Below the pieces are notes generated by a model. The model was not told the origin of the DNA and searched no databases. It saw only the letters and a program-made list of their open reading frames with translations. From assembly GCA_009760855.2 (NCBI GenBank), contig WPIO01000050.1:2358501-2422500 (forward strand): 64,000 nucleotides of DNA. The letters run 5' to 3'. Within the stretch, counting starts at the first letter, position 1, and the number at the start of each line of letters is the position of its first letter. Position numbers and translations under genes: made by a program. The stretch comes from Cristatella mucedo. Lineage: Eukaryota > Bryozoa > Phylactolaemata > Cristatellidae. Below, piece by piece: positions 2,320 through 61,820 of the stretch.

Positions 2320-2606
2320 CTCTGGAGTGGAGCGTGCTGTGCCGCCCCTGAGGACCATCTCGAGCGCACCTCGCGGGCTTTGCTCCGATTCCTCGGACTC
2401 GACGCAACAGGGCGGAGTCCATCAGCTCGGTGGAGCTGTGACGGGAACGGTGGCTGCGAGGCCGTCGTCGTCGCGGCCGATCTCAGACGGCAGGCAGCAG
2501 GCGTCCGCCGAGGCAGCGACTAGTGACCTGGCGGCCCAGGCACTGCTCGAAAGACTGCGCCACCAAGCCTGGAGTGTGCTCAGTGGATTGTGGTACCCGG
2601 TTGCTG
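2320..2606 (+). CDS. Exon A1 of an unrecognised multi-exon gene
   Basis: This is a 287-nt exon between acceptor CGCATTCACAG and donor G|GTAAGCC. Reading starts after one base (phase 2 in), runs 95 codons and leaves one base (phase 1 out). The peptide starts SGVERAVPPL and ends near WSVLSGLWYPVA. It is rich in Ser, Ala, Arg and Gln, with a helix-prone end (QALLERLRHQA). It aligns through its whole length with A2 (7,592-7,881) and in its second half with A3 (about 61.5 kb), for example SDSTQQGGVHQL versus SDATRPCGEHAL. Splice sites and phase are conserved in A1 and A2, which supports a real exon. No start codon lies in frame upstream, so at least one more 5' exon is needed. No domain family is recognised. 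Confidence 0.65.
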
Positions 2607-7591: not shown

Positions 7592-7881
7592 TTCTGGAGT
7601 GAAGCGTGCTGCACCGTCCCCTAGGAGCGTCTCGAGCGCTAGGGGGCGGTGCTCCGAACCCTCGGATTCGACACGACAAGGTGGAGGCCACCCGCTAGGC
7701 CGAGCGGCGAAGAGAACTGTAGCTGCGAGGCAGACGTCGTTGCCGATCTCGGACAGCAGGCAGCAGGCGTCCGCCGAGGCAGCGTCGAGGCAGACTAGCC
7801 ACATCGAGAGCCAGGCACTGCTTGAGAGACTTGAGCACCAAGCCCGGAGTGTGCTCAGTGGATCTGGGTATCCGACTGCAG
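7592..7881 (+). CDS. Exon A2 of an unrecognised multi-exon gene
   Basis: This 290-nt exon lies between acceptor TTTTTCACATTCACAG and donor G|GTAAGCC, with 1 base + 96 codons + 1 base, the same phases as A1. The peptide starts SGVKRAAPSPRSV and ends RSVLSGSGYPTA. It is one codon longer than A1 in total, and differences are mostly substitutions with in-frame indels. It is Ser/Arg/Gln/Ala-rich with a predicted helix around SQALLERLEHQA. Length, phase and both splice sites are kept after the intron has diverged, so selection on the coding frame is likely. It may be an alternative or additional repeat exon next to A1. Function unknown. Confidence 0.65.
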
Positions 7882-15743: not shown

Positions 15744-15938
15744 TTGCGTTGAGGAATTACGAAATACATTGGGCGTCAACTCGTGGAGTCAGGCAGAACA
15801 ATTACTGTCGAGCGTCGCTAACAGCTTTCGAGAAGATAGCGAGCTCGTCGCAGCAGGATTTATTTCAAGCGGTGATGTACCCTCAGTTGCAGCTGCTGGC
15901 AAGACATCTTATTTGATGGCACCGTCGGAAGTCGATAG
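15744..15938 (+). CDS. Exon C0, diverged first member of the C exon family
   Basis: The exon follows acceptor GGTTTCAATTTTAG and ends at donor GATAG|GTATGG. It is 195 nt: one base, 64 codons, two bases, exactly the length and phase of the five later C exons. The peptide starts CVEELRNTLGVNSW and contains SQAEQLLSSVANSF, which aligns with IEADEYLSSLVNNL of the array copies. The C-terminal half (GDVPSVAAAG...EVDR) has drifted. It is acidic/Ser-rich with no Cys pattern, signal peptide or known domain. No E- or D-type partner was found beside it. The exact length match supports a true exon and an ancestral duplication older than the array. Confidence 0.65.
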
Positions 15939-15939
15939 G

Positions 15940-17620
15940 TATGGTCAAATGCAAACGTACGAGCCTTCGTTCTAAGCTTACCGGTTACTATCTTTAGCTC
16001 GGGCTATTAGGCTCACTTGGCTTAGTCGCCGTGATCAAGCTCCTTACTTTTAATAACGCTGCTAGTCATGAGTGCAAAAATCCACGCAGTCTCTCATGAT
16101 CGCACTGAATACGTGACACACTAATTTCTACTATCCTTCGCTAGAGTTTAGCTGAAGCGGAACACTTCCACTGCCATTATGAATGCTACAAATGACAAGA
16201 AGACGCCGAGCATAACTCAGCTCCTTTCTAACTATTTTGAACGTAGAGTAAATGATGAACGACGTTACTAAAGTAACGGATCTTTTTGGGAGTGTGTCAT
16301 GCCATTCTTAGTTGCCATGAAAGCATGGATAAGCTAGAGCTCTCCTGAGAGCCATTTTTCCATGAGCCCTAACTCGAGAACTTGTGCAATGAGATATTAT
16401 GTGACATTGACGTTACAGTTGGCGCTCATTTGCGGGAATACCAATAAATTCAATTAAATTTCTTAAGTGCTTTAGAAAAATTTAACCTCATTATTGTTAC
16501 TTCGCACCAGATGGTGTAGCAGCCTAATACTAGCAGACTAGTGGAGATGATTTGAGTGATGTGAGTGCACTATAAATCTCTTGAATCTATATAAGTCTCG
16601 TGAATAAAAACCGCATAGTATGTGTGGCTTTGTGCAGTAAAAGACGGAGATATATTAAATTTTCAAAAGTATAGTGTGCACCAAAATGGTGAGAAGACTC
16701 GTCGATGTAATCTTGAATCTTGCTAGTTTTTAGTCTCCTTTGAAATGTTATGTAATGACGCCATTCGGCAAACAGTTTATGTTTTGTGCACACAGATACT
16801 GCAAGCATCATAGCCTAAGCAATGGAGTTGAGTTAGATACTCATGTAAATTAAAATTATTTGTATTCGCTTAGGAATCCTAAAAATATCTAGGCTTCTTT
16901 GAAAAAGGCAGATAAGTAGCTCCACTTTAGAGAGCTTTAGTACAGTCGTATCATACTGCATGAATTCGGATAGACAATTCTCTAGAATTTAAGTGTTGAA
17001 GGGACATTAAAAAAAGCATTCATTAACACTTACAGCCTATTTATAAAGAAGTCTTCACATAATGAAATTCGGCCGGAAAGTTTTGGCAGCAGAAACCATG
17101 ATTAGGGCTGACACCATTTATGCTGGCCTTTCCATGTTTTACTGGAATGAGACTAAGGTGCACGTAACTGCATGATAGCTCATTACCAGTGTCCTCTGAG
17201 CACATATATAGGCAAACCTTCGTTTGATGCCGATGACGTAAATTATGTAGAAGTACCGTTAATTTTTGTATAGTGATTAACCTTTTTATTTTTTAGCCGT
17301 TCCAAAGAGCTAATAATTTTGCGTATCTCCAATAAACACTTTCTATGTGTTAGCATCACACTTAATGTGTCGCGAACGGTTCCATTTTTGATAGTAATGA
17401 TACGTCTAGAGAAAGCAGCTCAAGTTAATTTGCCTCAAACAAGTTTAAGCATTCATCCCTGAACTCGGGTTTAGCTTATCGCACCTAGCAGCTTCGAGCC
17501 CAATCCTCCTATCCTGACGGGGAATTATTGTTATATTATATGCCGAGTTTGCATTTCAATGAGATAAGTAGCTGACAAGTCTCAATGTTATAAATTGCAC
17601 GTCGGTATTCCTTGGTATCC
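15940..17620. other. Intron-like stretch before the array
   Basis: No supported exon or mobile element is recognised. The sequence is A/T-rich with many stops in all frames. Confidence 0.4.
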
Positions 17621-18026
17621 AGAGCAAGTGGCTTAGTGAGCTGAGCTTCAGCAGCCATCATATGTTTTCCTATTTTCAGCTACTGTGGTTAGAGATTTAG
17701 TTCACAGAAGGCGTACAGAGATCCTAAAATATTTTAATAGTGACTACATCGGCTCTTGATACGGTTCTTTCTAAAAAAAGAATAAAGAATGTCGTGAGCT
17801 ACATCAGCTCCGATTCATGAATGTGAATTCTTTAAATTTTATATGTGAACCGACATCAAAACAAGAAAGTCATAGACACTTAAATATAGAGAACCTAAAA
17901 GTGACCCATGCTGTTTTACAAATACAATACACGATACATTGTTTAGATTTCATGGCTGCAGTGTGCAGTAGCTTTAATGCTTACGCTCGACTTAGTTTGC
18001 AGTGAATTTGTATTATTATTGCATTG

Positions 18027-18119
18027 ACTTATAAATGCCGACAACGATATGGAAGCTGATTACTCGGTTCAGAATAACGAGTTGTGTTCTTATCGACCTA
18101 ATACTAAATAAACTAATAA
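18027..18119 (+). pseudogene. Decayed exon E1
   Basis: Matches exon E of blocks 3-5 over its full 93 nt (ANGCCGAC...ATGGAAGCTGA, then CAGAATAACGAGTTGTG). The acceptor AG is missing (ACTTATAA where others have ATAG), an in-frame TAA occurs near the end, and the last third no longer aligns as protein. The donor GTAAGTG remains. It cannot function as the phase-2 exon seen downstream. Confidence 0.75.
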
Positions 18120-18221
18120 GTAAGTGAACTCCTTTGGATAATCCAGTACTAATACAATTATTTCTACTGACTTGACGTCTCAATTCTGCAAAGTTTGTGA
18201 GGACTGCTACTTTTGTTTCAG

Positions 18222-18416
18222 ATTGCCAGACAAGATACTGAAGCAAAGTGAGGAAGACGACACATTTATTGAGGCGGATGAGTATCTTAGCAGCTTGGTG
18301 AATAATCTTAAAGGTTCCTGTCAGCCTGATCCACGGGCGGCTGTAGAAAAGAGTTCAAAAGCTGCCAGTTCCGCCAACCAATCTACACTGTCACAGTTGC
18401 TCGGACTCGACGACGG
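18222..18416 (+). CDS. Exon C1 of the tandem-cassette gene
   Basis: Acceptor CTTTTGTTTCAG, donor GG|GTAAAGT; 195 nt, 1 + 64 codons + 2. The peptide starts LPDKILKQSEEDDTF, then IEADEYLSSLVNNLKGSCQ, and ends STLSQLLGLDD. The final bases GG differ from AG in the other copies, changing the junction residue from Arg/Ser to Gly/Ala type. The middle part (AAVEKSSKAASSAN) differs most from its sisters. An amphipathic helix with an LxxLL pattern (LSQLL) is visible near the C-terminal end. The family is unrecognised. Confidence 0.75.
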
Positions 18417-19493
18417 GTAAAGTACTGAACTCTGTGGAATGTGTCCCGAGAAGCCACACATGGATTTTCATTACGGCATCGACTATTTGTCTTTTCGTTA
18501 CGCACGATTAATCTCGGAAAAGATGTGCACTGAGCTGTACAAGAATTGCAGCTCGATCATTTGCAATTCTTAAAGATGCCACGACTGCAATACTCCGTTT
18601 GGCTGAGAGTAAAAACAAATATGTAATTCTTTGCTAGCGGTTTCTTGGTTTTGAGAATAATCACATTTCTGCGGACGCTACAATATGCAGTGGTTTACTG
18701 AGAGCTAGGATACATTGGTGTGAAGATACAAATTGAGAGGAGGTGATGACTCATCACAGATTGCAAAAAAAAATAAGAGATTGCTTTGACGAGTAAAATG
18801 TCAAGAAAATAATATCATATTTGGTCATTGAGGTCCTAACTTGCTGAAGCTAAGGTTAAACAGTCTCAAGATGGAAGAAACAGCTATTCCACGAGTACGT
18901 TGGTTCAAGACAGTTAAGAAACTAGCTTCAAACATTTGACATACCATATCACGTATGACTAGAATGTCACTTTTAGTTGACAGAATGTAACCAGTTTGAT
19001 AGTACCTCAATTGATCAAGTCCCTACCGAAGCTAATACTTTTGCAGCTGAAACATTGCAATTCTAGAAAAGTCGAACGATGTCACTGCAGATACAAATTG
19101 CTCTCCAAAATTTCCACTGCTATTTAAAAACGTAGCCCACGAATGTCACTATCGGTATTAGGTCCGTTTTAAAAAACCTCAACAATTTATTTCATGAGCT
19201 GGATAATTATTTTGGTTGAAAAATTACTTTTAGCTAAGGCAGGACAGCACTATTTGGATAGCAAGACTTGTCTGCAGCACTAAATTAAAGGACAGACGGC
19301 AGACCTGAATCGCATTAGAGTGCTGCCCTGGTTAATGCAATTATTTTGCTTGCTCGGTCGTGCAAGTGCTACAGTGCAGCAAGTTTGTAATTCACCTCAT
19401 GTGACAAAGATGGTCATACTTGTACACACACGCATGCACACAAACTTAAGGCACATGCACACCTACTGTTTTATTTATTTATTTATGTGATAG

Positions 19494-19604
19494 CCATCTG
19501 GAGGTAGCATACGATGACGAAATCGATGAAGCATTTGTCCAGTCACTGAACGTTCACTCGGCTTTGAGTTTCGACGGACTTACCGATCATGATGGCAACC
19601 AAAG
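19494..19604 (+). CDS. Exon D1 of the tandem-cassette gene
   Basis: Acceptor TTTATGTGATAG, donor AAAG|GTAGGCG; 111 nt, 1 + 36 codons + 2. The peptide starts HLEVAYDDEIDEAFVQSLN and ends FDGLTDHDGNQ. Later copies read LLEVAYG and DGLDRHDG at the same places. It is strongly acidic with no cysteine. The intron before it holds a CA-rich spot at the same relative position as the CA or AT microsatellites of the other blocks. Confidence 0.75.
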
Positions 19605-21036
19605 GTAGGCGAGGCCTCGAACTCTACTTGCTTTCAAATATCACAGTTACTCGTCAAATGTGCATGTAGTCTTTAAATTATTGCCAAAGGAAACCCCTGA
19701 CCAAAGAACATAGAAAATCATTATTTTATTAAAAGAATTACATTTTCAATTGATTTAATATTCGCTAGATCTAACCTGAAAGATATTTTTTAGGAAATAC
19801 AATGCACAGTAAACAAGCTGATTAATTTTATGAGTAGCAACTGTGACCACATCTCCCTATCTGAAAAGTAGATAATTTGTAGATGATACTTAATATTTTT
19901 TTTTATAACCAACGGAGATGCGAAACGATAGATAGAGTGTGGCCATCGGAGTTTTCCAGTTCTTCGCGGTCCAGTAAACCAAACTTGAAGCAGGCAGCAG
20001 CTAGTAAGTTCAGGTGAAAAGCTTGCTTGAATGAAATATAACGTCAATGGCCTACTTTTACTTAATCTAACGATCAACCTAGCCGTACGGTTCAGCTCTT
20101 GATGACCAACATCGAGTCAGTATTTTCTCAAAGGCAAAGGTCTTTTGAATATGCTAAAGTTAATTGCTTTAATTTGTTTTGATATGCACTCGATTTGAAC
20201 TTTTAGCTGACCCCATACGTCGAGAAAGTGAACGGTATTTTGAAGTGATTACTGGCATTGCAACGTGCAAATGGATGTCTCATCCGTTATTTGGAATAAT
20301 AACCCAAAATAACGTAGCAGCAAAAGACTGCTAAGGAAGTTTTCAGTTACAAACGCTGTGGTTGTAGCATACGTTCGCACTAACAATCTATTCAATGGCA
20401 ATACAAATACCAAATGGACTTTTGCTTAGTGCCCTGAGAGAACTTGATCTCGAGTCAGGTAATTCAAAATTCGCAGCTAATGAATGAAAAAAAAGGTCAT
20501 GCTAAATGCTTCATGCTAAATTTTGATCATATAAAAGCAAGCGTGTATCGTTATACACGAAGTGTTCTTAAGCAAAAATGGTGAAAAATTGCAGCACTTT
20601 ATTACGGTACCTAACCGACATATAATCAAGAAAGTGGCTTAGTTGCATTAGCTCCCGAACCGATTATATGTTTTCCTATATCGCCACTTGTAAACTACTC
20701 TGGTTAGAGATTTAGTTCTCATATGGCGCTACAGAGATTTCATAATACTATAATCAATAATACCTCGGCTGTTCAACCTGGTATTTCTCAAAAAGAATAA
20801 GGAATGTCGTGAGCTACATCACCTTCAATTTTGGAATATAAGTTCTTTATCTTTTCAGGTGAACATATATCAAAAAAAGCAAGTTATAAACTCTTTAATG
20901 GACAGGACTTCAAAAGAATCAATTTTGTTTTACTACTAAAGTGCTAAATTAATTTTTTAGATTTCCTTGTACAGCGTGCTGTAACTTTGATGCCTACTGT
21001 CGCAATGACTAGCAGTGACGTTTTATCTTTATTTAG

Positions 21037-21129
21037 AGTTGTAAACGCCGACACTAATGTGGAAGCTGAGTGATAGGTACGGAATAATAAATTGTGTTTT
21101 TCTCTAGCAGTAGCTGAAGTAGTTGATAA
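21037..21129 (+). pseudogene. Decayed exon E2
   Basis: Full 93-nt match to E3-E5 with intact acceptor (TATTTAG) and donor (GTAAGTA), but adjacent in-frame TGA and TAG codons follow GTGGAAGCTGAG. The equivalent place in E3 reads GAATACCAG. Including it would terminate the protein, so it must be skipped or the mRNA is non-productive. The symmetric phases allow skipping without a frameshift. Confidence 0.8.
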
Positions 21130-21236
21130 GTAAGTAGGCAAATTTCCATGGTTAAGTAATGTCTATTTAAGTAATTCAAATACACTGGTTGGTTCATTTA
21201 TGCCAAACTTTTTGGACACTGCTACTTTTATTGCAG

Positions 21237-21431
21237 ATTACCAGAAAAGGGAAATAAGAAAACTGACAGAGACAACACATTTAATGAGGCGGATAAGTAT
21301 CTTAGCAGCTTGGTGAATAATTTTAAGAGTTCCTGTCAGCCTGATCCGGGTGAAGCTGTAGATACGGGTTCAAGAGCTCTCAGTCCCACCGACCAATCAG
21401 CTTTGGCACAGCTGCTCGGACTCGACGATAG
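21237..21431 (+). CDS. Exon C2 of the tandem-cassette gene
   Basis: Acceptor CTTTTATTGCAG, donor GATAG|GTAAAG; 195 nt, 1 + 64 codons + 2. The peptide starts LPEKGNKKTDRDNTF and reads NEADKYLSSLVNNFKSSCQ, then RALSPTDQSALAQLLGLDD. The frame has no stop. The ALAQLLGLDD end forms the same amphipathic LxxLL-like helix as in C3 and C4. It lies 108 nt after dead E2. Confidence 0.8.
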
Positions 21432-22474
21432 GTAAAGTGCTGCACTCTGTGGAATGGGTCACCGGAATCCAAGCCCTAATTTTCATTAAATAATTGGCTA
21501 TCTCCGTTTTCGTTACTTACGATTAATATTAGGAAAGAATGCCTGTGGAGCTGTGCAAGGATAGCAGCTTGATCCATTGAAAAACTCGTAAGTGCAACGA
21601 CTAGGATACTGCACATGGCTGAGAGTAAAAAAATATGTTATTCTTTGCTAGCTTTTTCATCGATTCGAGAATAATCAAATTTATGTGAAAGCTACGATAA
21701 GCGTTGGTTTACTCAAAGCTAGGATAAATTAGTGGGAAGACACAAATTGAGAGGTGATGAATCATCACAGATCGCCAAAGGTGATAAGAAATCCTTCAGG
21801 AGTTTAACATGTAGCCAAAACGTGCGTTCCCAGTTGAATGCTTGGACGAGGAAAATGTCACAAAACCATCTTGTTATTGAGGTCCTAACTTGCTAATTTC
21901 AAACAGTCTCTAGACGCAAGAAACAGATATTCCATGAGTACGTTGGTTCAAGTCAGTTTAGAAATTAGCTTCAAACCTTTGACATCCTATGTAACATTTG
22001 ACTAGAACGTCACTTTTAGTTGACAGAATGTAACCAGTTTTATAGAATCTCAATTGATCAAGTTACTACCGAAGCTAGTATTTTCGCAGCTGGAACATTA
22101 CAGTCGCATTCACCAGAACGATGTCACCGCAGATAGAAATATCTCATGAATGTCTGCTGACCTTAACAGACGTAGCACTACGAAATTTTCTATCCGTATT
22201 AGGTCCATTTTAGATATCAGAGAAATTTATTTCATCAGATGGATAGTTATTTTGGTTAAAAAGTGACTTTTAGCCAAGGCAAGGCAGCACTATTTAGATG
22301 GCAAGAAATGCCTACAGCGCTCAATAAAAGAACAGGTGGCAGAGCTGAATCACGTTAGAGTGCTGCAATAGCTTATGAAATTAATTTGCTTGCTAGTTCG
22401 TGCAACGTGCTACAGCTCAGCAAGTTTGCAATTCATCTCCTGTGACAAAGATGGTCATACTTGTACAAACACAT

Positions 22475-22475
<1 letters not shown>

Positions 22476-22512
<37 letters not shown>
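22476..22512. repeat. (CA)n microsatellite in block 2
   Basis: About 18 CA units in the intron just upstream of D2, at the same relative position as the repeats at 25,757 and 29,125. Confidence 0.95.
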
Positions 22513-22518
<6 letters not shown>

Positions 22519-22573
22519 TCTCAAACTTAAATAAATGCACACATAAGGTTTTATTTCTTTATTAATATGATAG

Positions 22574-22684
22574 CCTTCTGGAGATAGCATACGGTGAAGA
22601 AATCGATGAAGCATTCGTCCAAGCACTGAACGTTCACTCGACTTTGAATTTCGACGGACTTGATCGTCATGATGGCAACCAAAG
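22574..22684 (+). CDS. Exon D2 of the tandem-cassette gene
   Basis: Acceptor TAATATGATAG, donor AAAG|GTAGGCG; 111 nt. The peptide starts LLEIAYGEEIDEAFVQALN and ends NFDGLDRHDGNQ. Compared with D3, several changes are at third codon positions (ATC/ATT, GAT/GAC), while the acidic core DEAFVQALN is kept. Confidence 0.8.
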
Positions 22685-24311
22685 GTAGGCGAGGCCTCGA
22701 ACTCTACTTGCTGCTAAATGTCACAGTTACTTGCCAAATATGCCTGCAGCCTTGCAATTAATGAGAAACGAAACGCCTGACCTAAATAAATAGAAAATAT
22801 TTGTGGTTTATTTAAAAATGGCATGTTTTCAATTGATTCACTATTTGCTAGACCTAACTTCAAGACAGCTGTTTGTAGAAAATGCAATGCACAGTAATTA
22901 AGTTGATTTATTCTAAGAGTAGCAACTGTGACCACAATCTTACTATCTGAAGTGGTATTAGATATATTGAAGATGATACTTATTATTTTGTCATAGAACG
23001 AATGGAGATGCAAAACAATAGATAGTGTGTGGCCATCGCAGTTTGTCAGTTCGTCGAGCTCCAGTAAACCAAACTTGAAGCAGGCAGCAGTTTGTAAATT
23101 CAGGTGAAAAGATTGCTTGATTGAAAGGTAACTCTGAACTTCAATGAATTAATAATATGAATAATCCTGAGCATTATTTGATAATCTCAACCCAATAGCA
23201 CAAGCTTATTTGAATAATAGATCACGTTCTATGACATTGCAAAGAGTTTCATTTTTACCATTCAAGCTGCACATTGCAGCATATTTTTAGAGCTAGTCCG
23301 TGATACCGATTAGAGATCCCGCTGGATTTTGTCAATGGCTTACTTTATCTTACCCTAAGGGTTAACCTTGGAGTACGGTTCAGCTCTTAATGACTAACGT
23401 TGAGTCACTGTTTTCTAAGAGGCGAAGGTTTTTCGAATATGCAAAAGTATAGTGTTAAATTTGATTTGATTTACATTCGATTTTACTTATTTTGGTGTCC
23501 AAATACGTTGAGAAAGTGAACAGTATTTTTCGGTGATTTCTGGCATCGGACATACAAATGGATTTCACGTCCATTATTCGGATTAATAACCCTTATGTAG
23601 CACTGAAAGACCACTAAGGCAGTTTTCAGTTTAAACGCTGCGGTTGTAGCTTACGTTCCCACTAATAATCTAGTAAATGGCAATACAAACACCGAATGCA
23701 CTTATGCTTAGTGCCCCGAGAGAACTTGATCTCGAGCCAGGCACTTCAAAATCTGTCGCCAAATGATGAAAATCGAGATCTGGCTTCATGCTGAATGTCG
23801 ATCATATGAAAGTAAGCATGTATATCATCATACATGAAGTGTGCTAAAGCTAACATGGTCGACAATTGTGACACGTTATTAAGGTACCCAAATGGTGCAT
23901 ACCCGAAGGAAGTTGCTTAGTTAGTTTAAGTCCCACAACAATTATAGGATTCCCTATATTACCACTTGTCAACTACTGTGAATAGAGATTTAGTCCTCAT
24001 AAGTCGCTATAGAAATTTCAAAATACTATAATCGTTAATAACTTCTCTGTTCAACCTGGTAATATCAAAAAGAATAACGAATGTCGTGAGCTACATCAGA
24101 TCCAATGTAGGAATATGAGTTCTTTTTTTCCACTTGAGCCGATATCAAAACAAGCAAGTCGCAGACACTTCAACGTACAGGAATTCAAAAGGATCAATTT
24201 TGTTTTAATAATAGAATACACAATTAATCCTGTAGATTTTCTCGTACAGCGTGCTGCAACTTTGATGCCTACGGTCGCTATGATTAGCACTGAGATTTTA
24301 TTTTTATTTAG

Positions 24312-24404
24312 GGCTGTGAACGCCGACTTGAATGTTGAAGCTGAATACCAGGTACGGAATAATGAATTGTGTTTTTCTCTGAGAGGAGCTGAAGTAGTTG
24401 ACCA
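24312..24404 (+). CDS. Exon E3 of the tandem-cassette gene
   Basis: Acceptor TTTTATTTAG, donor GACCA|GTAAGTG; 93 nt, 1 + 30 codons + 2. The peptide starts AVNADLNVEAEYQVRNNEL and ends GAEVVD. The last two bases (CA) plus the first base of exon C3 (G) make CAG, Gln, so E splices in frame to C. It is acidic and short, with no recognised motif. Confidence 0.75.
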
Positions 24405-24513
24405 GTAAGTGGGCACATTTTCATGGTTAAGTAATAATATCTATTTAAGTAATTTAAATATACTGGGCGTTTCATTTTTGCCGAACTTAGGGACATTGCT
24501 ACTTTCATTGCAG

Positions 24514-24708
24514 GTTACCAGAAAAAGGAAATAGGCAAAATGACGGAGGCGACACATTTAATGAGGCAGATGAGTATCTTAGCAGCTTGGTGAATAATCT
24601 TAAGGGTTCCTGTCAGCCTGGTCAGGGTGAAGCTGTAGATACAGGTTCAAGAGCTCTCAGTCCCACCAACCAATCAGCTTTGGCACAGTTGCTCGAGCTC
24701 GATGATAG
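24514..24708 (+). CDS. Exon C3 of the tandem-cassette gene
   Basis: Acceptor TTTCATTGCAG, donor GATAG|GTAAAG; 195 nt. The peptide starts LPEKGNRQNDGGDTF and includes NEADEYLSSLVNNLKGSCQ, then SALAQLLELDD. Here GLDD of C2 has become ELDD. It is intact and follows E3 after a 109-nt intron. Confidence 0.8.
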
Positions 24709-25754
24709 GTAAAGTACTGCACTCTGTGGAACGGGTCCGCAGAATATACGCCGTAATTTTTATTAAAGCGTTGACTGTCTTTCTTTTTTGTTACTTGCGG
24801 AAAGAATGTGTGTGACCTGTGCAAGGATATCAGCTTGATACATTGAAAAAATTGAAGGTGCCGCGACTAAGATACTGCACGTGGCTGAGAGTGAAACAAT
24901 ATGTTATTATTTGTTAGCGGTTTCATCGGTATGAGAATAATCAAATTTGTGTGGAAGCTAAGCTAAGCTAAGCAGTGGTTTACTGAAAGCTAGGATAAAT
25001 CAGTGGGAAGGCAGAAATTAGAGGAGGTGATGACTCATCACGGATCGCCAAAGGAGATATGAAATCCGTCACCTGTTTACTATGTAGGCAAAACGTGCAT
25101 TCCAAGTTGAATGCTTGGACTAGTAAAATACCAAGAAACCATCTTGCCATTGAGGTCCTAATATGCTGAAGCTAATTTCAAACAGTCTCTAGATGCAAGA
25201 AACAGCTATTCCACGAGTACGTTGGTTCAAGTCAATTTAGTAATTAGCTTCAAACATTTGACATCCTATATCACATGTGACTAGAACGTCACTTTTAGTT
25301 GACAGAATGTAACCAGTTTGATAGAATCTCAATTGATCAAGTTACTATCGAAGCTAGTATTGTCGCAGCTGGAACCTCACATTCACATCAAGTAGAACGA
25401 TATCACTGCAGAGAAAAATATCTCTAGTAAATGTCTGCTGATCTTAAAACAAATTGCACCACGAAATTTACTGTCGGTGATATGTCCGTTTTATATTATC
25501 AGAGAAACTTAGTCCATGAGCTGGATAATTAGTTTGGTTGAAAAATTACTTTTAGCTAAGGCAAGACAGCACTATGTTGATGGCAAGACTTGTCTACAAC
25601 ACTAAATGAAAGGACAGGTGGCAGGGCTGAATCGCATTAGATTGCTGCATTGTTCATGCAATTACTTTGCTTGTCACTTTGTACAACGTGCTACAGCTTA
25701 GCAAGTTTTCAATTCACCTTCTGTGAAGAATATGGTCGTACTTGTACAAACGCA

Positions 25755-25756
<2 letters not shown>

Positions 25757-25793
<37 letters not shown>
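25757..25793. repeat. (CA)n microsatellite in block 3
   Basis: About 18 CA units, at the orthologous position to 22,476-22,512 upstream of exon D3. Confidence 0.95.
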
Positions 25794-25795
<2 letters not shown>

Positions 25796-25856
25796 GCACA
25801 CCCTCAAACTTAAATAAATGCACACATAAGATTTTATTTATTTATTGATATGATAG

Positions 25857-25967
25857 CCTTCTGGAGGTAGCGTACGGTGACGAAATTGACGAAGCATTCG
25901 TCCAAGCACTGAACATTCACTCGACTTTGACTTTCGATGGACTTGATCGTCATGATGGCAACCAAAG
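25857..25967 (+). CDS. Exon D3 of the tandem-cassette gene
   Basis: Acceptor TTGATATGATAG, donor AAAG|GTAGGCG; 111 nt. The peptide starts LLEVAYGDEIDEAFVQALN and ends TFDGLDRHDGNQ. It is intact and nearly identical in protein to D2 and D4. Confidence 0.8.
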
Positions 25968-27690
25968 GTAGGCGAGGCCTAGAACTCTAACTGCTGCTAA
26001 ATGTCACAGTTACTCGTACATGTACGTAGCCTTACAAATAATGCGAAACAAAACGCCTGACCTAAATAAATAGAAAATACTTTTATTTAATTAAAAATGT
26101 ATATTTTCATTTGATTTACTATTCGCTAGACCAACATTGAAAGCTATTTGTAGAAAATGCAATGCACAGTAATTAAGTTGATTTATTCTAAGATTAGCAA
26201 CTGTGACCACAATCTTACTATCTGAAGTGGAATTAGATATATTGTAGATGATACTTATTATTTTGTCATAGAACGAATGGAGATGCAAAACAATAGATAG
26301 TGTGTGGCCATCGAAGTTTGCCAGTTAGTCGAGCTTCAGTAAATCAAACTTGAAGCAGGTAGTAATCAGTACATTCAGGTGAAAAGCTTGATTGATTGTA
26401 TGGTAACTCTGAAAGTCTACACGGTTAGTAGCATTATAACAAGTTACACGACGTGCCAAGCCTGGATAGCCATTCAGCCAAATAAAAATGCCTGTGATAA
26501 CAGTGTTAAACGAATATCAATGATTTAATAATAAGAATAATCCTGAGCAATATTAAAAAAAACTCAAGCCAATAGCACAAGATTATTGGAATAATAGGTC
26601 ACGTTCTAAGAAATTGCGACGAGCTGCATTTCGACCCTTCAAGCAGCACATCGCAGCCTATTTTTAGAGCTAGTCCGTGATACCGATTAGAGATCCTGCT
26701 GGATTTTGTCAATTGCAAACTTTATCTTACCCTAACGATCAACATTGGAGTATGGTTCAGCTCTTAATGACTAACGTCGAGTCACTGTTTTCTCAGAGGC
26801 AAAGGTTTTTCGAATATGCTAAAGTCAAGTGTTTAAATTAGCTTTGATATGCCCGTGATTGTAACTTTTAGGTGACCCTATACGTTGTGAAAGTGAACAC
26901 TTTTTATGGTGATGGGTAGCATTCCATCATGCAAATAGATTTGAAATCCGTTTTATGGACTAACAATACTTTTGTAACGCAAAAAGAAGGCTAAAGCAGG
27001 CTTCAGTTTTCAACACTTTGGTTGTAGATTTCGTTCTCACTAACAATCTTTTTAATGGCAATACAAATACCGAATGGACTTTTGCTTAGTGTCCCGAGAG
27101 AACTTAATCTCGAGCCAGATACTTCATAATTCGCAGCAAAAGAATGAAAAACAAGATCTGGCTTCACGCTGAATGTCGATCATATAAAAGTAAGCATGTA
27201 TCGTCATAAATGAAGTGTGCTTAAGCAAACACAGTCCAAAATTGCAGCACTTAATTAAGGTACCTAACTGACGTATACCCGAAGGAAGTGGCTTAGTTAG
27301 TTTAGCTCCTACAACAATTATTTGATTCCTTATATTGCCACTTGTCAACTACGGTAGATAGAGATTTAATTCTCATAAGGCGCTATAGAGATTTCATAAT
27401 ACTGTAATCATGACGACCTTGGCTGTTGATCCTGGTATTTCTAAAAAACGAATAAGGAATGTCGTCACTACATCCGCTCCAATTTAGGAATATGAGTTCT
27501 TTATTTTCTTCACGTAAGCCGATATCAAAACAAGCAAGTCGCAGACACTTCAATGTACAGGAATTAAAAGTATCAATTTTGCTTTACAAATAGAATGCGC
27601 AATAATTTTTATAGATTTTCTGGTACAGCGTGCTGTAACTTTGATGCTTACCGTTACTATGATTAGCACTGAGATTTTATTTTTATATAG

Positions 27691-27783
27691 GGCTGTGAAC
27701 GCCGACATGAATATGGAGGCTGACTACCAGGTACAGAATAATGAATTGTGTTCTTCTCTAGCCGGAGCTGAAGTAGTTGACCA
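27691..27783 (+). CDS. Exon E4 of the tandem-cassette gene
   Basis: Acceptor TTTTATATAG, donor GACCA|GTAAGTG; 93 nt. The peptide starts AVNADMNMEADYQVQNNEL and continues CSSLAGAEVVD. It joins C4 in frame through a CAG (Gln) codon. E3-E5 keep AV(N/S)A, (V/M)E, the NNE motif and EV(V/T)D. Confidence 0.75.
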
Positions 27784-27892
27784 GTAAGTGGGCAACTTTC
27801 AATGGTTAACTGATGATGTCAAATTGAGTAGTTGAAATTGACTGAGCTTTTCAAGTTTGCCCAATTTTTGGACACTGCTACTTTCATTGCAG

Positions 27893-28087
27893 GTTACCAG
27901 AAAAAAGAAATAAACAAAGTGACGGAGACAACACATTTATTGAGGCGGATGAGTATCTTAGCAGCTTGGTTAATAATCTTAAGGGTTCCTGTCAGCCTGA
28001 TCCGGATGCAGCTGTAGGTACGGGCTCAAGAGCTCTCAGTCCCACCGACCAATCAGCTTTGGCACAGTTGCTCGAGCTCAACGATAG
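27893..28087 (+). CDS. Exon C4 of the tandem-cassette gene
   Basis: Acceptor TTTCATTGCAG, donor GATAG|GTAAAG; 195 nt. The peptide starts LPEKRNKQSDGDNTF, reads IEADEYLSSLVNNLKGSCQ and ends SALAQLLELND. Intact. It resembles C1 at IEADEYLSS and C3 at LLEL. Confidence 0.8.
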
Positions 28088-29188
28088 GTAAAGAACTGCA
28101 CCCTGTGGAATAAGTCCCATAATCCACGCCTTAATTTTTTTTAAAGCATTGACTATCTTTCATTTTGTTACTTAGTATTAATTTCGGAAAGAATGTGTGT
28201 GAAGCTGTATAGTTGTTGTAACTTGATCCATTGAAAAAATCGAAGGTGCCACGACCAGGATACTGCACATGGCTGTGAGTGAAAAAATGTGGTATTTTTT
28301 GCTAGCGGCTTCTTCGGTTTGAGAATAATCACATATCTGTGGAAGCTAGGCTAGGCAGCGGTTTACTCAAAGCTAGGATAAATTAGTTCGAAGACAAAAA
28401 TTGAGAAAAGGTGATGACTCATCACAGATCGCGAAAGGAGACAAGAAATCCGTCGCCAGTTTACCATTTAGCCAGAACGTGCGTTCTCAGTTGATTGCTT
28501 TGACGAATACATTGTTACAAAAAATCTTTTCAGTGAGTTCCTAACTTGTTGAGTTTTTTTACCGCCTTTACATTCACGCAACAGCTATTCCTGGAGTACG
28601 TTAGTTCAAGTCAATTTAGAAATTAGCATAATATATTTCACATCCTATACCATATATGATAAGAATGTCACTTTCAGTTGACATAACATAATTAGTTTGA
28701 TAGATTCTTAATGGGTCAAGTTACTACCGAAGCTATTTTTTTCGCAGTTCAAACGTCACATTTCCTAATAACTCGAATGATGTCACTGCAGATATAAATT
28801 GCTCTCCTAAATGTCAACTGGTCTTAAAAAACGTAGCACCACGAAAGTCAGTATCGGTATTAAGTTCTTTTTTAGAAGACCATAGAAATTTAGTTCTTGA
28901 GCTAGATGGTTATTGTTTTGAATTACTTTTAGCTAAGGCATAACCGCACTATTTAGATGGTAAGACTTGTCTACAACACCGATTTAAAAGATAGGCGGCA
29001 GAGGTGAGTCGCGTACGAGTGCTGCAATTGTTTACACAATTATTTTGCTTGCTCGTTCGTGCAACGTGCTACACTACAGCAAGTTTGTAATTCACCCCAT
29101 GTGACAAGCATGGGCATGTTTTTACACCCACACATACACACGCACAAACACAGTTACATGCACACATATAGTTTTATTTATGCGATAG

Positions 29189-29299
29189 GCTTCTGGAGGT
29201 AGCATACGGTGACGAAATTGATGAAGCATTTGTCCAAACACTGAAAGTTCAATCGACCTTGAGTTTCGACGGACTCGATCGTCATGATGGCAACCAAAG
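29189..29299 (+). CDS. Exon D4 of the tandem-cassette gene
   Basis: Acceptor TTATGCGATAG, donor AAAG|GTAGGCG; 111 nt. The peptide starts LLEVAYGDEIDEAFVQTLK and ends SFDGLDRHDGNQ. The first base is G, where most copies have C, so the codon across the splice becomes AGG (Arg) instead of AGC (Ser). Confidence 0.8.
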
Positions 29300-31026
29300 G
29301 TAGGCGAGGCATCGAACTCTTACTTTCTGTCATATGTCTCAGTTAATCTAAAATATGGATGTAGCCTTTAAATTTATGCGAACCAAAACTCCTGATCCAA
29401 AGATCTAGATAATAGGTATTTGTTTAAATAATGTGCATTTTCAATTGATCTACTATTCGCTAGACCAAACTTGAAAGCTATTCGTAGGAAATGCAATGCA
29501 CAGTGAACAAGTTGATTTATTTTGCGTGTAGCAGCTGTGACCACAATCTCCCTATCTGAATTTGAACTAGATATTTTTTTGAGATAACGCCTAATATTTT
29601 TTCAGAAGTAATGGAGATGCAAAACGACAGATAATGCGTAACCATTACAGTTGGCCAGTTCGTTGAGCACCTGTAAAACATACCTTAAAGGAGGCTGTAT
29701 TCAAGAAGCTCAGGTGAAGTAGTTGCATGGTTGAATCGTATCACTAAAAATCTAGCTGGTTCAGTAATATTAAAAACAGGGCCAAGACGTGCCTAAATCG
29801 GATAGCCATCAAGACAATTTTTCACTGCTTGTGATACAAAAGTGTAAAATGAACTTCAATGATTTAATACTTCGAATACTCCTGAGTTTTATTTTATTAA
29901 GTGAGTCCAGTAGTACAAGCACATATAACAATGCGTCGCATTTTATGAAATTGTAGCGAGTTGCATCTTGATCCTTCAGGCAGGGCATTGCAACACATTT
30001 TTAGAGTTAGTCCATTAAAAAAATTAGAGATACTCGCAAATTTTGTCAATGAGCTACTTTACCTACCCTAAAAATCAACCTTCGAGAACATAGTTCAGCT
30101 CTTTATGATCAACGCTGAGTCTATAATATCTCAGAAGCTAAAGTTTAACGAACATGCTAAAGTCAATTGTTTAAATTTGTTTTAATATGCACTTGATTTT
30201 AACTTTTAGCTGACCCTATATGCAGAAAAAGTGAAAAGTATTTTGCGGTGATTACTTGCATCGCAACATGCAAATCGGTTTCACATGCGTTATTTGGACA
30301 GACACCCTTATGTAGCACTAAAAGACGGCTAAGGAAGTTTACAGTTTTAAAGACCACGGGTTGGGCCTACATGCCCACTAATAATCTATTTAATGACAAT
30401 AAAAATACCAACAGAGCTTTCGTTCAGTGCTTTGAGAGAAGTAGATCTCTAGCCAGGTACTTCAAGATGCATGGTGAAAGAATGTAAACCAAGATATGGC
30501 AACATGCTAAATGTCGATCATATAAAAGCAGGTATCGTCATTTATTAAGTGTTCTTAAGTAAAAACGGTTACAAATAGCCACACGTTATTAAGGCATCTA
30601 CCCGACATATACCCAAAGCAAGTGGCTTAGTTAGGTTAGCTCCAGCAACGATTATATGTTTTCCTATATAGCCACTTGTCAACTTCCGTGGATAGAGACT
30701 TGTTCTCATAAGGCGCTATAGAGATTTCATAATACTATAATCATAACTACCTTTGCTGTTGATCCTAGTAGCTTCTCAAAAAAGAATAACGAATGTCGTG
30801 AGATATATCAGCTCCAATGTGGGAATATGAGTTCTTTATTTTTACATGTGAACCGACATCAAAACAAGCAAGTCATAGACACTTGATTGTAAATGAATTG
30901 AAAAGGATCAATTTTGTTTTACAAATATAATGCACAATTGATTTAATAGATTTTCCGGTTTTAGTATGCAATAACTTTGATGTTTATGGTTTCTATGATT
31001 AGCAATGACATTTTATTATTAAATAG

Positions 31027-31119
31027 AGCTGTGAGCGCCGAAACTAATATGGAAGTGGAGTACCCTGTACAGAATAATGAAGTATTATCTTCACTATCGG
31101 GAACTGAAGTAACTGACCA
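31027..31119 (+). CDS. Exon E5 of the tandem-cassette gene
   Basis: Acceptor TATTAAATAG, donor GACCA|GTAAGTG; 93 nt. The peptide starts AVSAETNMEVEYPVQNNEV and ends GTEVTD. Several replacement changes compared with E3/E4, but length, phase and both splice sites are kept. Confidence 0.75.
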
Positions 31120-31228
31120 GTAAGTGAGCAAGTTTTGATGGTAATGTAATAATGTCTAATATAGTAATTTAAATCGGCTGGGCGTTTTGATGATGCCGAA
31201 TTTATGGACACGGCTCTTTTTATTTCAG

Positions 31229-31423
31229 CTTACCAGAACGGGGAGATAAGGAAAGTGACGACGATGACACATTTCATGAGGCTGCTGAGTATCTTAGCAG
31301 CTTGGTGAATGATCTTAAGCTGATCCGGCAGCCTGATTCGGGTGCCAATGTAGGTACGGGTTCTAGAGCTCCCAGTCCCACCGACCAATCAGCACTGGAA
31401 AGGTTGCTTGGACTTGACGATAG
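31229..31423 (+). CDS. Exon C5 of the tandem-cassette gene, with a GC donor
   Basis: Acceptor TTTATTTCAG; 195 nt. The peptide starts LPERGDKESDDDDTF, reads HEAAEYLSSLVNDLK and ends SALERLLGLDD. The donor is GATAG|GCAAGT instead of GATAG|GTAAAG. AG|GCAAGT is the known consensus of the minor GC-AG intron class, so splicing may still occur. If it fails, translation runs on for about 30 codons (QVLHSVECVPKAAL...) to a stop at 31,512-31,514, giving an alternative C-terminus. The LxxLL-like motif is LERLL here. Confidence 0.7.
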
Positions 31424-31504
31424 GCAAGTACTGCACTCTGTGGAATGTGTTCCCAAAGCCGCTCTAAATGTCTTTGTAAAAAAAATAATAGCTGATTTAA
31501 AAGC

Positions 31505-31645
31505 CACTGTATAGCGAAAGAAGATGAGAATTTATGGTCATCGCCGCCCCTTTCCTTGGCGATAAAGAAGTGTTCACCACAGGATAAGAACCTACGATCT
31601 CTGGATCGAAGTCGAGAAAAGGAACCGCCTTACCGCCCTCACAGT
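31505..31645 (-). mobile_element. SINE-1 copy, minus orientation, diverged
   Basis: Reading the minus strand, it has GGTAAGGCGGTTCC (A-box region), a diverged B-box region, a TCGCCA-like block and a TCTTTCGCTATACAG end, matching SINE-1 at 58,308-58,482. It lies just 3' of exon C5. Confidence 0.65.
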
Positions 31646-32614
31646 TATCTATTATCTCTATCGTTGCTTTATGCAATAACAATCAGAAACAACAGGTGTC
31701 TAGCTGTACACGGATGAAAGTGGATCCATCCAAAAAAGTCCAAGTTGCTTGAACTAAATTACTCTGCTTCAGTGAGAAAAGAGCGATTAAATTTGAAATA
31801 AGCGGCTGCTCTGATTTCAGAATGAACAATTTACTATGTGTGAGGCGAAGAGCGTTGGTAACTGAGAGCAAGGCTACAGCAGTGAAAAGACTGGAATTAA
31901 ACGAATGTGAAAACCCTCATCCTAACTTACTGAAGTGGTTTAAAACCCGTCACCACTTTACAATACAGGTGTTATATGTATTCCTAGGAGTTTTCTTAAT
32001 CAAGTATAATGCCACGAAGATCACGTGACAATGAGATCATAAGGACTCGATATAAGACTTAAACAACCTCGGCATGCAAGGAGTATTCTACGAATACGTT
32101 AGTTCAAGTAAATTTTAAATAAGGTTCTACATTTCAAAGATCAAAGGTCATATATAACTATAATCTAACTTAAAATTTAAAGAATTTAGTAAATTTGATT
32201 TACTAGCAATTGTCCAAATTTTCATAGAAGCTAGTTCTCTGATAACTGATACCTCAAAATTCTCTTAGAATTGGACTATTTCACTTTAGTTATAAATTGC
32301 CCACCTAAATTTACGCTACTCTTCAAAAACATTGCACCTCGAAAGTCGCTCTCAGTACTAGGTCATTTATACACAACCTCGTAATTTTACTATATAATGG
32401 ATTAAAAAAGTGGGGTGAAAGATTAGTGTTAGCTGAGGCAGGGCAACGTTCTGCTGACAGTGATAAGAACAATCAGTACTGGAAGCAAGTTGCATTCGAA
32501 TGCTACACTTCTGTAAATAACTGTTTTGCTTGCCCGCTCGTGCAACCTACTACAATCATATTTTTAGCATGCCTCCTATGACCTGCATGGGTATGTTTTT
32601 ATTATAAATTCTTT

Positions 32615-32616
<2 letters not shown>

Positions 32617-32656
<40 letters not shown>
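32617..32656. repeat. (AT)n microsatellite in block 5
   Basis: About 20 AT units immediately upstream of D5, where blocks 2 and 3 have (CA)n. Confidence 0.95.
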
Positions 32657-32662
<6 letters not shown>

Positions 32663-32673
32663 TTACATTACAG

Positions 32674-32788
32674 CGTTATGGAGGTAATGTGCGACCTACA
32701 AATTGACGAAGAGTTTTCCCAAGCGCTGAGCCTTCCTCCACTTGTGAGTTTTGACGTACCGTCAGTTCATGATGACGGCCAAAGGAAG
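32674..32788 (+). CDS. Exon D5, divergent last copy with shifted donor
   Basis: Acceptor TTACATTACAG. The first 111 nt align with D1-D4 (VMEVMCDLQIDEEFSQALS, later VSFD and HDDGQ), but the usual donor site AAAG|GT is AAAG|GA here. The next GT (GGAAG|GTAAAG at 32,789) would make a 115-nt exon ending in phase 0 rather than phase 2. So either the following exon begins in phase 0, or this exon is not used. The protein differs at about half its positions from D4. Real coding status uncertain. Confidence 0.5.
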
Positions 32789-33099
32789 GTAAAGCTTCGA
32801 GATTGTACTTGCTGTTAAATTAATCAGTCGTGAAATGTATAGCCTTCGCGATTTTTTACGTGGACCAAACTGCCTGGCCCATAGACATATAAATTAACTG
32901 TTAAAGTATATTTGTTAAGCCCCTTCAGGCAATTAAATTTAGTTCTAGGCACGTTACGTATAATGTAAGAGAAACATGTAAATGTTGTCTGTGATAAAAT
33001 TCGCGCGGTGCTAAAGTTTAAGCACAAAAAGGACAAACAGCTAGTATCCAGTGATTACTCTGAACAACAGATTTACTCATACTTCTTTTCAAATGACTT

Positions 33100-38219: not shown

Positions 38220-38417
<198 letters not shown>

Positions 38418-38484
<67 letters not shown>

Positions 38485-38575
38485 AGGGAGAGAGAGAGAG
38501 TGAGAGAATGAGAGATAGAGTGAGAAAAAAAGTGTGTGAGAGAGAGAGAGGGAGAAAGATAAAGAGAAAGAACGC
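38418..38575. repeat. (AG)n and impure AG-rich repeat
   Basis: About 30 AG units to 38,478, then an interrupted purine-rich stretch. Confidence 0.9.
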
Positions 38576-38579: not shown

Positions 38580-39600
38580 AGAAACCTCAAATTTAGTTCA
38601 ACCTACGATCAAAAAATGACTATCAACTCCGGAATTACTTATATTTTTTATCAGCTTGAAAAATATTTGCAAAGGTCAGTAGCACAAAAATAGAAATGAT
38701 GATCTTCTAAGGATACAAGGACAGATCCTTGGATTCTGCCAGAAAATAATGGTTCCAAGAAGAGGCTCACCTTGGCTCAATGTTTTAGTACGTTAGCTTT
38801 CGCTAACTGTCACCGACGTCACGTTTCAATTTTTCTTTGGATTGTAAGTACAGTAAAACTTCAAATGTGAATCTATTATGTGTGTAAGAAAGAGCCAATT
38901 TGCATTTTTAGTAGCTAGATGCGTTTTCACCTTATAAATTATATATAAATGTGTTGCGAATTCAATTCATTTGACTGTACATTACTATGAAATCACAGAA
39001 CCAATATCTGCGGCCCCGGACCGTCTAACGTGAAGGCATTTAACCTCAGTAAATACTTTGCTGAAGAGATTTAAAAAGCAAATAAAAGCACCACCTACCT
39101 GGTAATATTGTTAAGTCGGACGGGTAAAGCTAGATATTGTTTCCCTAGCTCCACTACTTACATGCGACCTCAATGACTTTCAACCTTCATATTCAGGTTT
39201 ACAAGTTGGGCTTTTTGATAAATATATTCCAAAGAATAGGTAAAATAGTTTTTGATAGCCTATTTTAAATGGGTGTGTTATACAAAAAACATCTTTTCAT
39301 AGGCCATGGCTTTTGTATGAAATGTATCCCGGTTCACGAACGTTCATCATTTGCTACCGATAAAATCCTTCCGACTAGTTCGGCTAGGCATATGATAGCC
39401 TCGCCTTGGCTAATTTATGTTCGGCTAATTACTATAACAATTACATGGCTTTAAAGTGCCCTAAGGTACAGATACGTGCATATACGAGCACAACAGTATG
39501 CTTAGAGGCAGACGTGTTTACTTGAAAGCAGATGCGTTGTTGTCGTGCCTATGCGAGCAATCTTGTGATGACAAAGAAAGAGAGAGCGTGAGAAAGAGAC
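38580..39600. other. Stretch without a supported gene
   Basis: A/T-rich, with no exon, LINE or SINE signature seen. Confidence 0.4.
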
Positions 39601-39624
39601 GGAGTGAGTGAGAAAGTGAGTGAG

Positions 39625-39741
<117 letters not shown>

Positions 39742-48300: not shown

Positions 48301-48780
48301 CGGACATTTAGTAGGCGGAATTTAAGAGGCTGTCCATCAACTGGGCGACGGCGATGAAGTGGCTCGTATTCTCTACCGTTTGTGTCCGGCCCGGCGGACA
48401 CTGGCTCTTCAAATTTGAATTGGACCTTGGTAACGGCCGTCGGACGACATTTCACAGCGTGCTGGGCTACGGCGGGTGGGCTACTACCAAAACAAGTACT
48501 ATTTAGCGCTTTAAACTTACGAATCGTAGGTTTGATAGCCGAGCTTTTGATAGGGCGAACGCAGGATGCAGGAAGGTTCTCACTGACCCGCCGGAGAAGG
48601 CCAGCCGGTAGGTATCGACTAATGGCGACATCGCATATAACTTGACGAGGAGACGAACAGTAGAAAGAAAGGTCAGAGGCTAAAACCATGACGAGGTGTT
48701 GCACGGGTCCCTTACAGGAACCCAGCACACGTGCTCGGTACTGCAAGTTATGTGAAAGAAACTGGGATTCTATTTCACCA
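45305..48780 (-). mobile_element. LINE-2, nearly complete L2-like non-LTR retrotransposon
   Basis: Right to left on the minus strand, the first frame (48,806-47,784) has an APE-type endonuclease: LNVRSLKTKG, LDVFLLTETWITP, GGGVAIVARE, LLIVGDLNIHVDNPSN. After a frameshift near 47,830 it continues LDLVITKDVL and LSDHCSVSF. Reverse transcriptase follows: SAIVRPILKKPRLD, LPFLSKILEKAV, FQSGFKRQHSTETALL, LLDLSTAFDTIDH, then CGVPRGSVLGPL and YHFHADDTQLY, with Tyr-Ala-Asp-Asp changed to His-Ala-Asp-Asp. An in-frame TGA at 46,577-46,575 (most simply CGA to TGA) and further breaks between 47,298 and 46,940 inactivate it. The C-terminal domain (LNYCNSLLAGLP, LGWLPVERR) and 3' UTR reach about 45,305. The best-preserved element in the window. 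Confidence 0.9.
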
Positions 48781-48789
48781 AGCTCGATC

Positions 48790-53830: not shown

Positions 53831-54379
53831 TTTCAAGTCATTTTCAGGTAACTGCAAGGTTCAGAAGTTGAAAAGTAAATGGCCGGAGGGACGAGAAGAT
53901 ATGCTTGTGCTGCTATCAACACCTAGATACAAGTTTCACGTACCCTCAGAGAAGATTTTTACATTCGTAATAATGTTTTCTGTTACTTTTGTAGAGCATC
54001 TTTCAGCTTGAACTATACGTAGTGTAAAAATTTACAAGGTACAAAAGCCCGAGCCCATCATTTGGCCTGTTGCATTAGTTGACTAATCACACGATATGTG
54101 CATTTTACTCTGAGAAAAATGTCTCTGAGCACTCTAACACGCGTCAATGGAAAAGTATCAATTGGTCGGTGACTGCAAGTGCAACTTCTGTATGCTACGC
54201 TCATCACACGTGCGAGGCATAGATCCAACGCCAACGGTAGACGCGCCCTGTTTGGACTCATTCACCATTCGCAGACTCTTCCGGCGGCCACAGCCTATCC
54301 CTGAGCAGCAGTACACAATCCCGGAGCCGCAATAAAGTTACAGGGAAATTCTGCACCCCTAGGGCCCCAGTGGCCGCTC

Positions 54380-61480: not shown

Positions 61481-61511
61481 ATGCTTGAGCTCTGTTGTGA
61501 CTGCTTGTCAG

Positions 61512-61820
61512 AGGATGACGATGGGAGGATGGCACCGCCAGATGAGTGTGCCTCGCGGTCAACCGGGATAAGTCAACGGCAAGTACTCAACTCTTTAACT
61601 TGTGGAGGCCTCGCCGAACCGTCAGACAAGCCGTTGCCCGCCTATAGCTTCCAGGGCGCTCACGAGCAGCCCTCAGGACCTTCGGACGCTACGCGACCGT
61701 GCGGCGAGCATGCACTCGGAGAGGCAGCGTACAGAGAGCTCGCAGCAGCCGAGTCGCTGCTAGAAAGTCTAGGCTACAAAGCACAGAATGAGTGGAGAGA
61801 ATCTGGGTACACGACTTCCG
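61512..61820 (+). CDS. Exon A3, distant homologue of A1/A2
   Basis: The open frame ends at donor TTCCG|GTACGTC in phase 1, as A1 and A2 do. The second half aligns: GPSDATRPCGEHALGEAAY with SDSTRQGGGHPLGRAAK, then AAAESLLESLGYKAQ with ESQALLERLEHQAR, ending ESGYTTS like GSGYPTA. I set the start at acceptor GACTGCTTGTCAG (309 nt, phase 1 in), but an ATG at 61,481 in the same frame could make it a first coding exon (MLELCCDCLSEDDDG). Its start therefore differs from A1/A2. GC-rich codons, no known domain. It lies about 54 kb from A2 on the same strand. Confidence 0.55.

Follow-up and report, generated by a model that had tools for sequence, protein, structure and literature searches.

A tandem array of short exons in the bryozoan Cristatella mucedo raises the question of whether its repeated blocks belong to a single working gene and, if so, how that gene grew. 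The array lies in a 64,000-nucleotide (nt) stretch of assembly GCA_009760855.2, hereafter the window (contig WPIO01000050.1, here C453; C453:2358501-2422500). Coordinates refer to the window and its plus strand unless stated otherwise, and those given in Mb refer to C453. Whole-genome searches covered 572 Mb in 688 contigs, and exon chains, phases and splice sites were read from the DNA sequence and constitute a model. Based on this model, we consider it somewhat probable (about 55%) that the array is the 3' half of one live modular gene, which would belong to a clustered animal family and have been built by tandem duplication of multi-exon units.

An original prediction for this locus had proposed five blocks of about 3.0–3.4 kb, each carrying exons E (93 nt), C (195 nt) and D (111 nt) in that order, all with phase 2 at both ends. 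A repeat search of the window placed direct repeats at 3,015–3,379-nt spacing across 17.7–32.8 kb, and the successive spacings of the five blocks (3,015, 3,277, 3,379 and 3,336 nt) agree with the proposed block size. The C and D array is real: C1–C5 (18222..18416, 21237..21431, 24514..24708, 27893..28087 and 31229..31423) all measure 195 nt and D1–D4 (19494..19604, 22574..22684, 25857..25967 and 29189..29299; donor gtaggc in each) all measure 111 nt, and the exons contain no gap or stop and run from phase 2 to phase 2, with 1 nt of a split codon at the 5' end and 2 nt at the 3' end. They are flanked by AG acceptors and GT donors, with the exception of C5, whose donor is GC (gcaagt).

The proposed regularity stood only in part for E and for the end of the array. 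E3–E5 (24312..24404, 27691..27783 and 31027..31119) are intact at 93 nt, with AG acceptors, GT donors and phase 2 at both ends. E1 (18027..18119) is broken, having one in-frame stop and no AG acceptor, and so is E2 (21037..21129), which has two in-frame stops and keeps its splice sites. D5 (32674..32788) is without the donor of D1–D4. It would either be cut at 32788 by the donor gtaaag, for a length of 115 nt and phase 0, or be a last coding exon that continues to a stop ending at 32818. One full cassette would encode the predicted 133 residues (31 + 65 + 37).

Introns proved to be rich in indels and exons free of them, as had been claimed. In a five-block alignment, E, C and D contained no gaps in 10 of 10 block pairs; gap columns made up 3–22% of the C–D intron in all 10 pairs, and the 5 pairs in which indel events were counted gave 10–13 per kb of intron. 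Random plus-strand segments of the same lengths, drawn from 33–53 kb of the window, were open by chance in 4% (C), 15% (D) and 20% (E) of cases. The divergence between blocks also bears on the idea that they are separate small genes or an error of assembly, for which nothing speaks beyond the repeat itself. Blocks differ by 10–40% in exons and introns and are thus not one sequence assembled repeatedly, and none of the start exons described below (A, P and B) occurs between them; we regard this explanation as highly improbable.

If the blocks belong to one gene, where does it begin? The gene starts outside the window, and the array makes up only its 3' part. Upstream exons P and B were found by DNA similarity to paralogous units. 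The B exons (B1, 2320..2606, 287 nt; B2, 7592..7881, 290 nt; phase 2 to 1) have conserved acceptors and donors and indels in threes when aligned, and the same hallmarks mark the P exons (P1, 1546..1675, 130 nt; P2, 6844..6964, 121 nt; P3, 9370..9505, 136 nt; phase 1 to 2). P1 is homologous to 10 other P copies, and all 11, each with a length of 1 mod 3, are open in the required offset (phase 1 to 2); five of them are also open in offset 0 and three in offset 1. The acceptors of three copies, which the search pattern had missed or misplaced, were set by hand from the P alignment. All six B copies tested were open in the required offset (phase 2 to 1) and closed in the other two. The first codon of exon A is a conserved ATG (protein start M-F-E-L-Y-C-D-C-S-S-E-D-D-D, with variants), and the exon, whose 3' boundary was set by its donor, ends in phase 1.

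Joined in the order A-P-B-P-B-P-C0-C1-D1-C2-D2-E3-C3-D3-E4-C4-D4-E5-C5-D5, these 20 exons of 93–415 nt form a chain of 1,129 codons whose phases match at all 19 joints. It has 0 stops in frame, whereas the two alternative frames have 44 and 108. Phases of A, P, B and C0 were determined exon by exon, P having been chosen partly because it fitted; phase agreement at their joints is a check on the model that this partial choice qualifies. Exon C0 (15744..15938; 195 nt, phase 2 to 2) had been counted as a sixth C copy of fixed length. The fixed length applies to C1–C5 and D1–D4; C0 has the length and phase of a C exon but only 17–22% identity to C1–C5, a comparison of the C0 and C family profiles gave a probability of 2.8%, and by alignment C0 has 12 closer relatives in an exon family of its own (13 copies), so it was dropped from the C count. 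The idea of modular, frame-neutral cassettes is upheld by the model and extends to the P–B pairs and C0 of the same gene, where the outer phases of each amplified module are equal (1 to 1 for P–B; 2 to 2 for C0 and E–C–D). As far as exon phases go, isoforms differing in repeat number may be permitted.

The modelled gene has relatives nearby. Among the matches listed in whole-genome searches, whose counts are lower bounds, 14 of 15 for C0, 25 of 27 for E–C–D, 23 of 28 for B (some of the 23 being A exons) and 27 of 29 for A fall at 1.996–2.646 Mb, giving 89 of 99 within ~0.65 Mb of C453. At five places the match to exon A starts at the first residue and contains no stop, which indicates at least five gene starts; the window itself contains the first coding exon (A) of the next gene of the family (61481..61820). 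Paralogous units on both strands of the contig repeat the order P, B, then C0, E, C, D, and some of their exons carry stops. Among the matches listed, more than one intact E–C–D block was found only in the window gene, and a paralog at 2.517–2.498 Mb has one B, one P and four C0 followed by E, C, D and a lone E. Because unit composition differs in this way between paralogs, P–B, C0 and E–C–D have each multiplied, to different extents from gene to gene.

Two further loci resemble parts of the family. At C453:2539570-2540270 (minus strand), an A-like exon contains internal SLPSWS-type repeat units and is open for 233 residues to the edge of the piece read. At C222:2667505-2667829 (minus strand), exon C is matched weakly (E = 0.009), and exon E, preceding it by ~110 nt, is matched weakly as well (E = 2.2, one TAG). 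The spacing is that of the array, and the pair is perhaps a relative outside the cluster.

How could the array have grown? Its repeat unit consists of several exons with their introns, in tandem within one modelled gene. Unequal crossing-over within introns would have copied whole exon groups with equal outer phases, and because of these phases the frame would be kept at every gain, loss or skip. The state of E1 and E2, dead while the neighbouring C and D exons are intact, fits such tolerance of module loss. Block 5 matches blocks 1–4 at 0.67–0.88 up to C5 and at 0.49–0.70 in the C–D intron and D, and the drop comes within ~60 columns past the end of C5, the pattern that a crossover in the C–D intron would produce. 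By nonsynonymous divergence (dN), D5 is nearer to two D copies elsewhere on the contig, at 2.563 and 2.578 Mb (0.21 and 0.28), than to D1–D4 (0.43–0.52), and the last D is thus read as the older copy, which stayed behind.

The sequence just after D bears on whether it is an internal or a last exon. We aligned the 3' flanks of ten D copies so that a second GT stands 4 nt on from the first. The exon is followed by GTAGGCGAGG in D1–D4 and by GTAGGTGAGG or GTAGGTGAAT in the copies at 2.501, 2.563, 2.578 and 2.646 Mb; the flank of D5 is GAAGGTAAAG and that of the 2.441 Mb copy is GCAGGTGAGT. The first GT, present in 8 of 10 copies, yields a 111-nt exon with equal phases, and the second, present in 6 of 10 copies and in 0 of D1–D4, yields 115 nt and phase 0; with this end, TAG is the last codon in 4 of the 6 copies. 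No exon conserved among genes was found downstream of D: pairwise matches past the D flank recur at several places in a repeat-like manner and, judged as a group rather than individually, were rejected as candidates. A lone D-like exon with an in-frame stop (C453:2441345-2441455, plus strand) has the strongest phase-0 donor among the D copies (CAG|GTGAGT).

These flanks could mean that the blocks are alternative last modules, with C0 spliced to one chosen E–C–D block and translation stopping in or just after D, for five possible C-termini. An in-frame TAG directly follows the exon in 8 of 10 D copies, single-block genes end in C0-E-C-D with no recognisable later exon, and D5, the last of the array, has lost the phase-2 donor without visible harm. 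However, the TAG is not special, since any phase-2 donor starting GTAA, GTAG or GTGA gives a stop at once, as those of C and E also do, and we discarded it as a signal. Moreover, all 10 D copies have a donor-like GT at their end, in one of the two places, and the motifs AATAAA or ATTAAA, found within ~340 nt 3' of D in 7 of 9 copies, are expected of an AT-rich intron anyway. A choice among tandem alternative 3' exons is made in lola and mod(mdg4) of Drosophila; the likeness would apply only if the blocks are alternative last modules, and the 3' exons of those genes, unlike the blocks here, are not known to be recent tandem copies of one multi-exon block. We consider this explanation rather unlikely.

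Under the favoured model of one continuous chain, D1–D4 would be internal exons that splice through the phase-2 donor GTAGGC, and D5 would end the coding region or pass to an unseen last exon. For the 3' end there are three options: D is the last coding exon and D1–D4 were made internal via the first GT, D1–D4 serve as alternative last exons, or a short final exon has escaped notice; we favour the first option for the window gene, with low certainty. An extension of that option, speculative and unlikely as it stands, is that a terminal D was turned into a repeatable internal cassette, so that the array would act as a ladder of exits with a choice at each D to splice on or stop. The ancestral D would have been a last coding exon whose stop TAG lay within the exon end of a donor (TAG|GTGAGG). 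A single change of GT to GC in D1–D4 would then have abolished that donor; splicing at the remaining one, 4 nt upstream (AG|GTAGGC), would cut the stop out and give D equal end phases, and the choice to splice or stop could set the length of the acidic tail of one gene. All 6 D copies outside the array interior retain the GT of the old donor, and all 4 inside it have lost that GT; since these four share descent, the loss was probably a single event. If true, this history would show how a last exon may turn internal and repeatable.

What would such a gene encode? The predicted protein had no match at curated cut-offs in Pfam, NCBIfam or PDB sequences, so the suggestion of an undescribed protein family holds within the scope of these three libraries. 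The best Pfam score, to MinC_N_1 (E = 0.0004; 21 bits compared to a cut-off of 27), included no stretch passing alone and is attributed to chance. When IMG/VR viral contigs were scanned with the C profile, none of 107 pattern matches was confirmed as a relative. The highest 19-residue hydropathy of the protein is 1.26, with no membrane-like stretch, and its first 30 residues are hydrophilic judging by hydropathy only (mean −0.38). The N part is basic (52 lysine plus arginine, 37 aspartate plus glutamate) and the C part acidic (45 and 128, respectively). Exon C was modelled as two helices (residues 12–32 and 50–63) with a mean predicted local distance difference test score of 68.5 and a predicted template modelling score of 0.27. 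Short acidic or amphipathic helices look to be common to C, C0, D and B, though kinship between C0 and C was not borne out. The product would be an intracellular, largely unfolded protein with short amphipathic helices in a repeated acidic tail.

We compared copies of the repeated exons for signs of constraint. Pooled omega (the ratio of nonsynonymous to synonymous divergence, dN/dS) was 0.62 for C (six copies; 15/15 pairs below 1), 0.59 for D (eight copies; 27/28), 0.68 for E (three copies; 3/3) and 0.69 for C0 (3 of 13 copies; 3/3). Values per pair ranged from 0.4 to 1.04 and were below 1 in 48 of 49 pairs overall. The C set comprised C1–C5 and the 2.5025 Mb copy, excluding two copies with stops (2.582 and 2.565 Mb) and three others, at 1.996, 2.071 and 2.644 Mb; the D set excluded the 2.441 and 2.646 Mb copies. 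Neutral simulation on a star tree gave a mean omega of 0.85–0.89. In the five-block alignment, the three codon positions had nearly equal numbers of substitutions (C, 129/107/128; D, 74/78/91), a sign of weak constraint. Selection on these sequences therefore looks weakly purifying: the dN/dS among C and D copies, put forward earlier as a check, is below 1 (about 0.6), but the neutrality tests are marginal.

Several points weigh against a live gene with the array as its 3' half. Neutral runs reached the observed omega or lower in 6.1% (C1–C5) and 11% (D1–D5) of cases, and the full set of five C was free of stops in 3.4% of runs and that of five D in 20%. E is dead in two of the five blocks, the donor of C5 is GC, and that of D1–D4 (GTAGGC) is weak by consensus. 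In three further genes whose D ends in GTAGGT, no recognisable exon follows D, which suits D as a last coding exon. The helix model of C is of low confidence, that more blocks would offer more binding sites for a partner is a guess, and the chain is a model read from genomic sequence. Some of these points would also suit a decaying gene, in which the array is a relic of recent amplification and most blocks are without function: E1 and E2 are broken, the D5 and C5 donors are odd, several paralogous exons carry stops, and omega (0.4–1.04 per pair) gives marginal neutral tests. Such decay is at odds with C1–C5 and D1–D4, none of which has a stop, an indel or an unusable splice site, and with the open 20-exon chain, and we think it quite improbable. 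Because the neutral omega tests are marginal, the case for constraint on a live gene is mainly the missing exon indels.

Is this manner of growth known from other genes? Growth by copying of such exon groups is, and the closest known case by analogy is NBPF/Olduvai (DUF1220) on human chromosome 1. According to excerpts of PMC9584774, this multi-gene family likewise has intragenic tandem units of introns and several exons, with two exons in a unit of about 1.6 kb and about 20% divergence between neighbours. Here, by contrast, three exons occupy 3.0–3.4 kb, upstream modules P–B and C0 are amplified as well, the animal group is a different one and there is no Olduvai domain match in Pfam at family cut-offs. 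The likeness to schistosome micro-exon genes drawn in the original prediction holds for the frame-neutral principle only. Exons of those genes, in the sections of PMC10526429 consulted, are mostly multiples of three with long introns, so that the frame is kept on skipping; here the lengths of C0, C, D1–D4 and E, but not those of A, P, B and the 115-nt D5, are divisible by three. The likeness ends at exon size and signal peptide: micro-exons measure 6–81 bp and their proteins have a signal peptide (PMC10526429, same sections), compared to exons of 93–415 nt and a hydrophilic N-terminus (hydropathy −0.38) here, and we rejected membership in that class. SmLEV1 of Schistosoma mansoni, as portrayed in part of PMC8639091, is similarly lineage-restricted, without a Pfam domain, signal peptide or membrane helix, and has probable exon duplications; its 11 exons have proven transcripts in which cassettes are skipped without frame damage, whereas the gene modelled here has 20 exons in multi-exon blocks and is known from genomic DNA only.

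As modelled here, the case is one of block amplification in a library-unmatched family with three modules amplified apart. If transcribed as modelled, the gene would be a clear natural case of stepwise protein lengthening by phase-matched exon groups, with three modules amplified independently in one family and single-block paralogs adjacent for comparison. The weight of the case rests on gene-structure evolution.

The window yielded no RNA families or tRNAs. A broken long interspersed nuclear element occupies 45345-48848 (minus strand), with endonuclease and reverse transcriptase matches (PF03372 and PF00078) in three open frames. The GC-rich segment at 54300-55600 has long overlapping open frames on both strands, two of which were tested without a Pfam match, and is perhaps the promoter or first exon of another gene. 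Long AG/GT dinucleotide arrays are found at 38223-38571 and 39575-39739. In the same genome, COX1 on the mitochondrial contig (C688) is open under both genetic code table 9 and table 5; conserved Lys and Met sites make table 5 the better fit, which speaks against a flatworm, and an early assignment to tapeworms or flukes was dropped. Neither the arthropod cuticle family (PF00379) nor the mollusc haemocyanin family (PF14830) had a genomic match, a weak negative given that control genomes gave none either. Outside the window, COX1-like pieces lie off this mitochondrial contig, at C166:4375626-4376390, C83:2826-3735, C549:2641741-2642010 and C299:634220-634540, and are probably nuclear copies of mitochondrial DNA.

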